A DNA stretch of 64,000 nucleotides from Trichlorobacter ammonificans (GTDB taxonomy: Bacteria; Desulfobacterota; Desulfuromonadia; Geobacterales; Pseudopelobacteraceae). This document shows, in pieces, positions 56,517 through 60,344 of the stretch. The stretch is taken from assembly GCF_933509905.1 (NCBI RefSeq), contig NZ_OW150024.1, forward strand, positions 248,001 through 312,000, read 5' to 3'. Below the pieces are notes generated by a model, which saw only the letters and a list, made by a program, of their open reading frames with translations, was not told the origin of the DNA and made no database searches. The position numbers and the translations under genes were made by a program. The first letter of the stretch is position 1; every line of letters begins with the position of its first letter.

Positions 56517-56843
56517 ATGCCGTGGAATATTTACTACTACAGCGAGGATGTCAGGCTTGAGATTGCGGCCATGCCGGTCGGCATTCGGGCCGCCTATGTC
56601 CGCCTGACCGAATTGCTTGAAGAATTTGGTCTCGATCTGCGCATGCCCCATTCACGGGCCATGGGAGGCGGGCTGTTCGAGTTGCGGCCGCGCGGCAGGG
56701 AAGGGATTGCACGGGTTTTCTATTGCACGATGGTAGGGCGACGGATTGTCGTGCTGCACTCCTTTATCAAGAAGACCCAGGAAACACCCAAGCGTGAATT
56801 GGACATAGCACGGAAACGACAGAAAGAGGTGTGTGGATCATGA
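56517..56843 (+). CDS. HigB/Gp49-like RelE-superfamily toxin
   Basis: 108 aa: MPWNIYYYSEDVRLEIAAMP, LEEFGLDLRMPHSRAMGGGLFELRPRGREGIARVFYC and VLHSFIKKTQETPKRELDIA are typical of PF05973 toxins, which cleave ribosome-bound mRNA. AAGGA precedes the ATG at 56517. Its stop overlaps the antitoxin start (ATGA), the usual toxin-first order of higBA systems. Confidence 0.87.
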   Translation: MPWNIYYYSEDVRLEIAAMPVGIRAAYVRLTELLEEFGLDLRMPHSRAMGGGLFELRPRGREGIARVFYCTMVGRRIVVLHSFIKKTQETPKRELDIARKRQKEVCGS

Positions 56844-57157
56844 GTAGCAAATCACCGACAAAATCGCATCAGCAGATGGTGGCCGAGTGGAAAAAAGATC
56901 CGGAGTTTGTGGCTGCCTATGACGAGCTGGAAACAGAATTTACCCTGTTGCGCGAATTGTTGCAGGCGCGACAGCGAGCCGGTTTGACCCAGGCCGAGGT
57001 GGCTGAAAAGATGGGAACCAAGGCTCCGGCTGTCACCCGGCTTGAAACGGCACTCTCGGATAACCGGCATTCGCCGAGCATTGCCACCTTGAAGAAGTAC
57101 GCTCAGGCTGTGGGATGCAAGCTGGAAGTTCATCTGGTACCGGCAAAGGCGGTTTGA
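56840..57157 (+). CDS. HigA-like XRE antitoxin
   Basis: 105 aa with a helix-turn-helix of the XRE type (LLQARQRAGLTQAEVAEKMGTKAPAVTRLE, residues ~45-75) and a short C-terminal strand region. Partner of the HigB-like toxin and probable repressor of the pair. ATG at 56840 overlaps the toxin stop codon by 4 bases; a GTG nine bases earlier is less likely. Confidence 0.87.
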   Translation: MSSKSPTKSHQQMVAEWKKDPEFVAAYDELETEFTLLRELLQARQRAGLTQAEVAEKMGTKAPAVTRLETALSDNRHSPSIATLKKYAQAVGCKLEVHLVPAKAV

Positions 57158-57282: not shown

Positions 57283-57894
57283 CTAGGTAGCAGCAGGGTT
57301 CCCGATCAGCTTCACGAAATCCTCATAGCCGGTAAAGCCGACCAATCGTCTATCTCCGAAAAGGTGGGCCGGTACTGCGGTGATGCGGAGATCCCTGGAC
57401 CGCTGCCAATCGGCATCCACCGCTGCTGCATAGCTTCGCTCCGCCAGCACCTTCTGCGCCTCATCCGCCGCCAGCCCGGCGCTGACGGCGATCCGCACCA
57501 ACTCGTCACTTTGAGCGATGTTGACCCCGTCCACAAAATAGGCCCGGTAGACGGCCTGATGGAACTGCTCGCCGCGTCCCTGCTTTTCTGCCAATTTTCC
57601 CAGCTCCTGGGCAAGGCGGCTGTTGTAGGTGCGGCTGCGGGTGGTCAGGGGCAGGCCTTCTGCTGCGGCAACCTGCAGCAGCCGGGCCTGCATGTCCCGG
57701 ATCATAGCCTCCCGCCCGGCGAAGAGCTCGGTAAGCTCTGTCCCTTCCGGCGGGGTTTCGGGGTGCAGCGGGAAGCAGCTCCAGCGAATCCGGATTCCGT
57801 AGTTTTTCACGAGGCGGTCGGTACGCACGGTACCGAGGTAGCACCAGGGTCAGACGTAATCGAAAAAGACCTCCAGTACGGGTGCACTGTCCAT
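57283..57894 (-). CDS. DsbA/FrnE-family selenoprotein with UPWC active site (in-frame TGA)
   Basis: Reading from ATG at 57894 gives MDSAPVLEVFFDYV, then TGA (57852-57850), then PWCYLGTVRTDRL and the rest of a DsbA-like fold to the stop at 57283; 203 residues if TGA is read as selenocysteine. DsbA/FrnE relatives have CPWC at this place, so Sec15 replaces the attacking cysteine. The late cis-proline region ITAVPAHLFG is intact. AAGGGGGA precedes the ATG. Standard gene finders would start at a GTG at 57828 and lose the active site. It follows the DJ-1 gene by 23 bases on the same strand. A sequencing-true nonsense mutation is the alternative. Confidence 0.8.
57818..57836 (-). promoter_or_regulatory. 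SECIS-like hairpin behind the UGA codon
   Basis: On the minus strand, UCGGUAC-CGUGC-GUACCGA forms a 7-bp stem with a 5-base loop; the stem begins 13 bases after UGA and the loop 20 bases after, in the range of bacterial SECIS elements. The loop contains G and U but not a clear GGU. Confidence 0.5.
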
Positions 57895-57917
57895 GGTATC
57901 CCCCTTGCTGTGGACTA

Positions 57918-58592
57918 TCACAGCAGTTTCAAGAGCTCCCGGGCAACCGGTTCCGACGAGGCCGGGTTCTGGCCGGTGACCAGGTTGCCGTCCCTGACCA
58001 CATGGGGCTGCCAGTCGGCCGCTTTGGTATAGCTGCCACCGGCCTTGCGCAGTTCATCCTCCACCAGGAACGGCACAACCTCGGTCAGACCGACTGCGGC
58101 CTCTTCACTGTTGGAAAATCCGGTGACCCCTTTCCCCTGCACCAGCGGCGTGCCATCCGTATTCCGGGCATAGCGCAGCACCCCGGGGGCGTGGCAGACC
58201 GCGGCGACCGGTTTCCCTGTGCTATACATGGCCTCGATCAGGGCGATGGAATTCTTGTCTTCGGCGAGGTCCCACAACGGGCCATGGCCGCCGGGGTAAA
58301 AGACCGCATCGTAATCATCCGCGCATACCGTTTTCAGCGGTACGGTCTGCGCCAATGCGGCCTGCGCCGCCGCATCGTTGTTGAATCGTTCGGTGGCCGG
58401 GGTCTGGAAATCTTTCTCCGCGCTCTTGGGGTCCAGCGGTGGTTGTCCCCCGTTGGGTGAGGCCAGGGTGATGTCCGCTCCGGCATCCTTGAAGACGTAA
58501 TAGGGGGCGGCAAACTCCTCCAGCCAGAATCCGGTCTTGTGGCCGGTGGTGCCGAGTTCATCGTGCGATGTAAGAACCATCAGTATCTTCAT
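57918..58592 (-). CDS. DJ-1/PfpI family protein (Hsp31-like)
   Basis: 224 aa: MKILMVLTSHDELG, catalytic glutamate region FAAPYYVFKDAGADITLASPNGG, FYPGGHGPLWDLA, and nucleophilic cysteine in PVAAVCHAPGVLRYA. The order and length match Hsp31-type glyoxalase/deglycase-like proteins. Pairing with the thiol-redox selenoprotein in one operon suggests a role in electrophile or oxidative stress; this is inference. Confidence 0.9.
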   Translation of the reverse strand: MKILMVLTSHDELGTTGHKTGFWLEEFAAPYYVFKDAGADITLASPNGGQPPLDPKSAEKDFQTPATERFNNDAAAQAALAQTVPLKTVCADDYDAVFYPGGHGPLWDLAEDKNSIALIEAMYSTGKPVAAVCHAPGVLRYARNTDGTPLVQGKGVTGFSNSEEAAVGLTEVVPFLVEDELRKAGGSYTKAADWQPHVVRDGNLVTGQNPASSEPVARELLKLL

Positions 58593-59027: not shown

Positions 59028-59078
59028 TACCGCTGCGTCCCCGGCCGCGTGCCGGGGACATTCAGCACCGGAGAGGTT

Positions 59079-60344
59079 ATGTTTCGCATTACACAACTGG
59101 CAGAGCAGTTCGGGCTCTCCCGCAGTACCCTGCTCTACTACGACCGGATCGGCCTGCTCTCCCCCTCGGGACGGAGCGAGGCCGGTTATCGCCAGTACTC
59201 GCCCGCGGACCGTGCCCGGCTGGAGTCGATCTGCTCCCTGCGCCGGGCCGGGATGGACATTGAGGGGATCAGGGCGATCCTGGCCACAAGCGGTGACGAT
59301 TCAACCACGGTGCTGCGGCGGCGGCTGGATGAGATCGGTGTGGAGATCGAGGCGCTGCGCACCAAGCAACGGCTGCTGGCCGGCATGCTGAAGGTGCAGG
59401 GGGCGGGTGGCCCGGGCGCCTCAGTGAACAAGGAGATGTTTGTTGCTATGCTGCGCGCTGCCGGTATGGATGACGCCGCCATGAAAAAGCTGCACATGGA
59501 GTTCGAGCGGCAGGAGCCCACGGCCCACCACGCCTTTCTGCTGTCGCTGGGCATTTCAGAGAAAGAAGCGCTGCTGATCCGTAAATGGTCGGCAGCCATG
59601 GAGAATACGATGACGATGCAGTATTTTTACGAACTGTTTGAGAAACTGCCGAGGCAGGGACCTGGCTGCCGGGAGGCAACCCTGCGTGCGCTGGGACTGC
59701 TGGCCGATCTTCCGGCGAATCCCGCTGTGCTGGATATCGGGTGCGGCTCCGGAATTCAGACCCTTCTGCTTGCCGACGAGTTGCAGACAAAGGTCGTTGC
59801 GGTCGACAATCATCAGCCTCTGCTGAAGATCCTGAGCCAGGCAGCCGGAGAGGCCGGCCTGGCTGTTGAGACCTGTGAAATGTCGATGATGGAGATGCCG
59901 TTTGCCCCGGAACGTTTCGATCTGCTCTGGGCCGAAGGATCAATCTTCATCATAGGCCTGGAGCGGGGCCTGCATGAATTCGCCCGCCACCTGAAACCGG
60001 GCGGCTATCTGGCCTTTACCGAGCTCTGCTGGTTTGTCGAAAATCCACCTGATGAGGTGAAAGACTTTTTTGCCGCAGCCTGCCCGGAGATGAAATCCGC
60101 CGGTGATGTTCGGCAACGGTGTGTTGACTTCGGGTACCGGGTGATCGACAGCTTCAACCTGCCGGACAGCGCCTGGTGGGATGACTACTACACGCCGATG
60201 CTGGCGCGGATGGAGGAGCTGAAACAGCGCAACGTCGGCATTGCTGAAGCGGAAGAGGTGTATGCCAGACTGGAAGCCGAGATAGAGATGTTCCGGAAGT
60301 ATTCGGCCAGCTATGGGTATACCTTCTTTGTGCTGCAGAAATAG
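59079..60344 (+). CDS. MerR regulator - small helical domain - SAM methyltransferase fusion
   Basis: 421 aa. Residues 1-70 are a MerR winged helix (FRITQLAEQFGLSRSTLLYYDRIGLLSPSGR), 70-110 the dimer coiled coil. Residues ~125-175 repeat the domain of the preceding 61-aa protein. From ~190 a class I methyltransferase follows with VLDIGCGSGIQTLLLAD and FARHLKPGGYLAFTELCW. Metal-binding cysteines of classical MerR are absent. ATG at 59079 has GAGAGG upstream. Either a regulator sensing SAM/SAH or a methyltransferase-coupled sensor. Confidence 0.87.
   Translation: MFRITQLAEQFGLSRSTLLYYDRIGLLSPSGRSEAGYRQYSPADRARLESICSLRRAGMDIEGIRAILATSGDDSTTVLRRRLDEIGVEIEALRTKQRLLAGMLKVQGAGGPGASVNKEMFVAMLRAAGMDDAAMKKLHMEFERQEPTAHHAFLLSLGISEKEALLIRKWSAAMENTMTMQYFYELFEKLPRQGPGCREATLRALGLLADLPANPAVLDIGCGSGIQTLLLADELQTKVVAVDNHQPLLKILSQAAGEAGLAVETCEMSMMEMPFAPERFDLLWAEGSIFIIGLERGLHEFARHLKPGGYLAFTELCWFVENPPDEVKDFFAAACPEMKSAGDVRQRCVDFGYRVIDSFNLPDSAWWDDYYTPMLARMEELKQRNVGIAEAEEVYARLEAEIEMFRKYSASYGYTFFVLQK

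Follow-up and report, generated by a model that had tools for sequence, protein, structure and literature searches.

DsbA-like UxxC selenoproteins were reported in 2005 from the Sargasso Sea, as nine sequences assigned to COG2761 (PMC1088965). As far as the accessible parts of the sources go, DsbA-like selenoproteins are also recorded in complete bacterial genomes (PMC1794560), in GOS data (PMC2398784), in a few chordates (PMC2874816) and in review tables of 2022 (PMC9312934) and 2026 (PMC13188914); a stop-codon survey entered a Desulfovibrio pair as 'Dde_1263 + upstream' (PMC1914089), and in the accessible text of a 2025 prediction paper DsbA does not appear (PMC12013277). According to the available portion of its report, FrnE of Deinococcus radiodurans was active in vitro both as an isomerase and in the reduction of insulin, and cells in which it was disrupted were more sensitive to cadmium and diamide (PMC8945050). 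Lmo1059 of Listeria, a DsbA-family protein of the cytosolic type, is likewise described in the accessible part of its source as reducing GSSG in vitro (PMC10715225).

Here we analysed a candidate selenoprotein gene of this kind in a window, by which we mean the whole stretch of 64,000 nucleotides of Trichlorobacter ammonificans DNA. COG2761 we take to be the FrnE group. Computation gave the TGA codon and its conservation, a covarying hairpin, the machinery genes and a predicted fold, and from these we infer selenocysteine (Sec) insertion itself. That the gene encodes a selenoprotein at all is close to certain, and the whole explanation including function, a Sec15 FrnE-type cytoplasmic thiol-disulfide enzyme, is highly probable. 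The features of the locus are as follows.

57283–57894, minus strand: predicted FrnE/DsbA-like selenoprotein gene, 203 residues, Sec at 15 (frame, PF01323, PDB relatives, alignment, fold model)
57850–57852, minus strand: UGA, proposed selenocysteine codon (U15) opening the UPWC motif (TGA/Cys column in homologues)
57841–57843, minus strand: partner cysteine C18 of UPWC (no variation at this column across the 30 rows of alignment A3)
57370–57372, minus strand: P175, proline after V174 (likewise invariant in A3)
57900–57905, minus strand: ribosome-binding-like AGGGGG, ending 5 bases ahead of the ATG
57826–57828, minus strand: downstream GTG (V23), the start in a mechanical gene call, with loss of the active site
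57818–57836, minus strand: bacterial SECIS-like hairpin with a 7-bp stem and a 5-base loop, CGUGC (comparative evidence)
57825–57829, minus strand: apical loop, with an invariant G as second base throughout the 66 rows of alignment A2 (column 25)
57918–58592, minus strand: DJ-1/PfpI family gene, 23 bases upstream of the selenoprotein gene and on the same strand

Reading frame, predicted fold and likely function

The frame runs on the minus strand from the ATG at 57894 to a TAG ending at 57283, and the TGA at codon 15 is its sole interruption; with this codon read as U, residues 10–19 are FFDYVUPWCY. The initial annotation had placed an in-frame TGA at the first cysteine position of a CPWC motif, between flanks that were in frame and DsbA-like. 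Indeed, TGA 57852–57850 is codon 15 and stands where homologues without a TGA carry Cys, the PF01323 (DSBA) profile scored the protein at 119.6 bits against a curated cut-off of 25.6, and pN/pS is low on both sides of the codon. The ribosome site claimed ahead of the upstream ATG was found as AGGGGG (57905–57900), and the expected mechanical start was found as well: under the standard code, the ORF list contains in this frame only the stretch from GTG 57828 to 57283 (181 amino acids), which misses the active site. Besides Sec15, the only cysteines are Cys18 and Cys40. The U/C-P-x-C columns are invariant across the 30 rows of A3, and P175 is presumably the cis-proline expected of a thioredoxin fold.

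The single NCBIfam match of the window protein was NF041057, which scored 28 bits where the cut-off is 190 and aligned to residues 100–197 only; because its sole match stays so far below the cut-off, the 'unannotated' status given by the initial annotation is plausible. Among the 30 aligned members, 25 matched NF041057 (best E 9.2e-11) and 10 matched TIGR00411 (best E 1.1e-6), with the comparison against cut-offs covering, of these 30, the window protein.

An AlphaFold model, built with Cys at 15, reached a pLDDT of 94.2 and places the first strand at residues 6–11. Its best fold match was Deinococcus FrnE (5cnw; Z 26.9, rmsd 1.9 over 200 residues; TM by query length 0.87–0.90), tied with Streptomyces SCO1869; together the FrnE structures and SCO1869 gave Z scores of 26.2–26.9. 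The best PDB sequence matches were SCO1869 and then Deinococcus FrnE, with CPWC in both aligned to UPWC in the window protein. Judged by its closest solved relatives in both sequence and fold, the protein falls in the FrnE subfamily, which bears out the FrnE-like assignment made earlier. The C-terminal CXXXXC of that subfamily is absent from the window protein (only C18 and C40 are present). According to the accessible part of one report, this motif is common but missing from some of the proteins that bear the FrnE name (PMC8945050), and we do not treat it as a strict criterion.

The next fold matches were the group of 2-hydroxychromene-2-carboxylate (HCCA) isomerase and kappa glutathione transferase (3fz5, Z 21.8; 1yzx, Z 20.9; 2imd, Z 20.6), and DsbM. 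As the isomerase and transferase share the fold group, the selenoprotein might be nearer to them in biochemistry than to a disulfide oxidoreductase; however, the FrnE structures and SCO1869 score higher and the U/C-P-x-C columns do not vary in A3, and we consider this alternative improbable. Our best reading is that the window protein would reduce or isomerize disulfides in the cytoplasm, using Sec15 as its nucleophile. In the thiol-disulfide exchange proposed, Sec15 would attack and Cys18 would resolve. Activity, location and partner are drawn from homology, and the redox direction, too, is one that we infer. The cytoplasmic location is suggested because no hydrophobic leader was seen ahead of residue 15 in the window protein.

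The SECIS-like hairpin and the selenocysteine machinery

The initial annotation had described a 7-bp hairpin starting 13 bases after the UGA. Such a stem is present in the minimum-free-energy fold, where 57836–57830 pair with 57824–57818 at that distance, and covariation supports it. On its own, the window hairpin is not unusual in stability (z −1.04, with 31 of 200 shuffles as good). A scan against Rfam likewise yielded no SECIS match and three sub-threshold hits only.

For the comparison across relatives we used alignment A1, comprising the 35 TGA rows of 37 distinct sites (the two Cys rows were left out), and alignment A2 of 66 rows, which joins 25 of the 35 rows of A1 to 41 of the 44 closer TGA loci of a wider set after near copies were dropped, 13 more distant TGA loci being excluded. 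Stem pairing was 98.7% across 34 distinct rows and 95.5% across the 66 rows of A2, in which five of the seven pairs showed two-sided changes (47 two-sided cells). With the hairpin at the same distance, 46 of these rows keep seven pairs, 19 keep six and one keeps five. The covariation score of A2 was 0.348 compared with 0.169 after shuffling, with 0 of 500 shuffles as extreme, and it was at most 0.176 with the partner slid; among five A2 measures, the number of pairs with two-sided change (7/500) and the number of pair types (38/500) were less extreme. Supporting this stem, RNAalifold recovered its inner six pairs unprompted. Additionally, in 31 of the 37 rows (the two Cys and four distant Sec rows were left out), pairs of rows with the same residue at codons 20–25 used differing codons at frequencies of 0.00–0.13, compared with 0.54–0.62 for those residues elsewhere in the gene. 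Codons 20–25 form the lowest six-codon window of the gene for synonymous change (0 of 100,000 permutations), and since neither shuffles nor permutations keep the relatedness of the rows, this zero and the one for covariation are not probabilities. On this comparative evidence the hairpin appears to be a bacterial SECIS under structural selection.

The genome (3.06 Mb, a single contig, rated 99.99% complete) encodes a tRNA-Sec whose anticodon is TCA and which scores 73.4 bits (cut-off 47), and its proteins include profile matches above the respective cut-offs for SelA (604 bits), SelB (368 bits) and SelD (348 bits). The machinery whose absence the initial annotation had named as refuting its claim is thus all in place. 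The SelD gene of this genome (L020, C1:2341869-2342792) itself has an in-frame TGA, in KAAG-U-AAKLG, and is a selenoprotein candidate in its own right. In the mechanism that we propose, SelB carrying Sec-tRNA would recognise the hairpin beginning 13 bases past the UGA, and Sec would be inserted at codon 15 to yield a full-length FrnE-type protein of the DsbA family with a U-P-W-C active site. The DNA alone would be compatible with read-through of the UGA by a standard amino acid and no selenium, but the Sec machinery in the genome, the retention of at least five of the seven hairpin pairs at a fixed distance in every row of A2, and Cys as the sole alternative at the column all stand against it, making such read-through very improbable.

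SelB presence was also tried as a discriminator between Sec and Cys genomes and failed: at E 1e-70 or better, SelB was found in 42 of 45 closer Sec genomes, all 13 distant Sec genomes and also in 10 of 11 Cys genomes. Three closer Sec genomes lacked it, namely G090 (85% complete) and G193 (76% complete), in both of which SelA is present, and G276. The last, rated 100% complete, showed neither SelB at E 1e-70 nor SelA at E 1e-40; its TGA-form gene with a hairpin (L125) may lie on a stray contig or be an orphan selenoprotein gene.

The TGA codon and its cysteine forms across relatives

Of 37 distinct sites, 35 carry TGA at this codon and the other two carry Cys codons, TGT in L036 and TGC in L047. 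A wider set of 68 loci (L084–L151, in which L085 and the L031 of the first set are one gene) comprises 57 with TGA and 11 with a Cys codon, and 103 distinct related proteins, with duplicates and short pieces removed, divide into 89 TGA and 14 Cys forms. Cys homologues aligning to the TGA column, which the initial annotation had predicted, were thus present in each set, and neither TAA nor TAG occurred at this position among the 37 and 68 sites examined. The loci came from named genomes (32, of which L053 and L055 are without the site) and from family and phylum searches. The phylum search matched 102 of 395 genomes and points to a Sec-dominated branch: exactly one TGA is present in 48 of the 50 matches that are near full length and at least 42% identical, and none in the other two, and in the 46 of these 48 that were inspected (G398 and G198 were not among them) the TGA lies at the codon 15 position. 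This tally omits seven partial matches at or above the same identity, in G216 (two), G309, G420, G432 (two) and G119, of which two have one TGA, three have no stop, one has TAG and one has TAA.

In the same 31 rows, pN/pS ahead of the TGA was 0.065 for codons 8–14 and 0.158 for codons 5–14, compared with 0.31 for codons 27–198, and the short upstream piece therefore evolves as protein. A pseudogene, in which a Cys codon had mutated to a stop and left the gene dead or shortened, would find some support in the fragmentary copies of G011, G021, G022, G034 and G068 and at a second place in G038. Against it stand the recurrence of the same stop, never TAA or TAG, across both sets of sites, its conservation in all 89 distinct TGA proteins, low pN/pS on either side and the covarying hairpin, and we regard a pseudogene as scarcely credible. 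A shorter true product from GTG 57828 with its upstream part untranslated, although it is what the standard code gives in that frame, has a negligible probability, as it would lack the first strand and the active site while codons 8–14 evolve as protein and AGGGGG precedes the ATG. Of the 37 rows, 32 have a residue at that position and 29 of these begin with ATG there; the script sought an ATG 9–14 codons before the site, so this count is no more than consistent. On the grounds given for each, selenium-free read-through, the pseudogene and the GTG start were rejected, and the Sec15 selenoprotein is the reading that we retain.

Farther DsbA-like proteins (L131, L133, L138–L143, L146, L148 and L149) carry TGA first in UPFC or UPYC, with different hairpins; in this mostly UPFC group, the TGA is present and the proteins' own hairpins form in single-sequence folds.

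L036, a Cys form with TGT and 67.7% identity, clusters with four Sec rows (SH-aLRT 99 for the group of five). It retains the loop and six of the seven stem pairs, and SelB is present in its genome; most simply, it would represent a recent Sec-to-Cys change. The TGC form L047 retains two of seven pairs, and in its genome no SelB above the cut-off (best 196 bits against 242) and no SelA at E 1e-40 were found. Three further Cys loci (L081, L120 and L126) retain four, five and four pairs, respectively, with differing loops. The 103-row tree places the window gene in a clade of 38 rows, 36 Sec and two Cys (SH-aLRT 97), and contains at least eight Sec/Cys state changes, which alone cannot tell gain from loss in a quick tree with long branches (L147, L139 and L081).

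Distribution, neighbourhood and comparison with described systems

The nearest named relatives, down to ~65% identity, are titled Geobacter, Geobacteraceae, Desulfuromonadaceae, Desulfuromonadales or Deltaproteobacteria. The gene is accessory in its family, as 24 of 76 genomes matched, of which 19 carry the gene at full length and the other five carry nothing but fragments. Partial copies in other genomes of the family (loci L075/L082, L076, L077, L078, L079 and L083, one of them in two pieces) may be decaying or may be assembly effects. A plasmid search returned 174 records, all below 60% identity; the 12 matches listed were at 31–34%. We lean, by a narrow margin over even, towards a broader picture: a Sec-first cytoplasmic FrnE branch would extend across the phylum, reaching records labelled Planctomycetaceae (L049) and Alphaproteobacteria (L051), with Sec as the resident state and Cys forms as repeated later reversions. 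The L036 hairpin would then be a SECIS fossil, and the branch would probably have no NCBIfam model of its own and be mis-started downstream in many genomes.

A DJ-1/PfpI gene lies directly upstream in the window and in L024, L026, L027 and L034 (four of these loci recur in the set as L056, L058, L060 and L066), and ~2.5 kb downstream in L025; it was seen in no other locus of the set, in which the short stretches L112–L151 could not show it. A generally conserved operon was therefore not found, the DJ-1/PfpI linkage being limited to a few loci. On the opposite strand, a Gp49-family gene (PF05973; 56466–56843) overlaps an HTH_3 gene (56831–57157) that adjoins the selenoprotein gene, a pair presumably arranged like HigB/HigA-type toxin–antitoxin genes. 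Farther along, 59049–60344 on the plus strand encodes one protein with a MerR regulator domain and a methyltransferase domain.

Read in this way, a gene call without an active site very probably becomes a full redox enzyme, and the lineage gains a selenoprotein. The Cys form L036, with its SECIS-like hairpin kept beside close Sec relatives, offers a natural matched pair on what Sec buys in a CXXC-type enzyme. In the literature searched, no record combining selenoprotein with UPWC was found, nor did the combination with FrnE yield any title on a bacterial FrnE selenoprotein. A 2006 table, as far as it was accessible, has no DsbA-like entry under any of the three Geobacter species that it covers (PMC1794560). 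Sec is the dominant state in the branch of the window gene, a point that seems less noted in the accessible literature.

The closest solved relatives differ from the window protein in defined ways. SCO1869 of Streptomyces coelicolor (PDB 3gl5), the top PDB sequence match (E 5.5e-19), has a CPWCY motif, with Cys in place of Sec, and its title goes no further than a probable DsbA oxidoreductase. D. radiodurans FrnE (PDB 5cnw, 5xwh), the best fold and second-best PDB sequence match, has CPWC at the same place. According to the accessible part of its report, it is a predicted cytoplasmic DsbA-family oxidoreductase, in line with our reading of the window protein; unlike that protein, it carries Cys rather than Sec, and its C-terminal CXXXXC is proposed to serve regeneration (PMC8945050). 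NF041057, the Rcas_1661 family thioredoxin-like (seleno)lipoprotein, is the sole NCBIfam match, but it is a named lipoprotein family whereas the window protein shows no visible leader and stays below its cut-off. The published DsbA-like selenoproteins (COG2761/PF01323) share the domain family, a UxxC motif with Sec first and a bacterial SECIS past the UGA, as far as their accessible descriptions go (PMC1088965, PMC2398784, PMC1794560, PMC1914089, PMC13188914); compared by description, the likeness seen is at the level of the family. The kind of protein is thus already known; new are this member, whose one NCBIfam match stays below threshold, and, it seems, the dominance of Sec in its branch.
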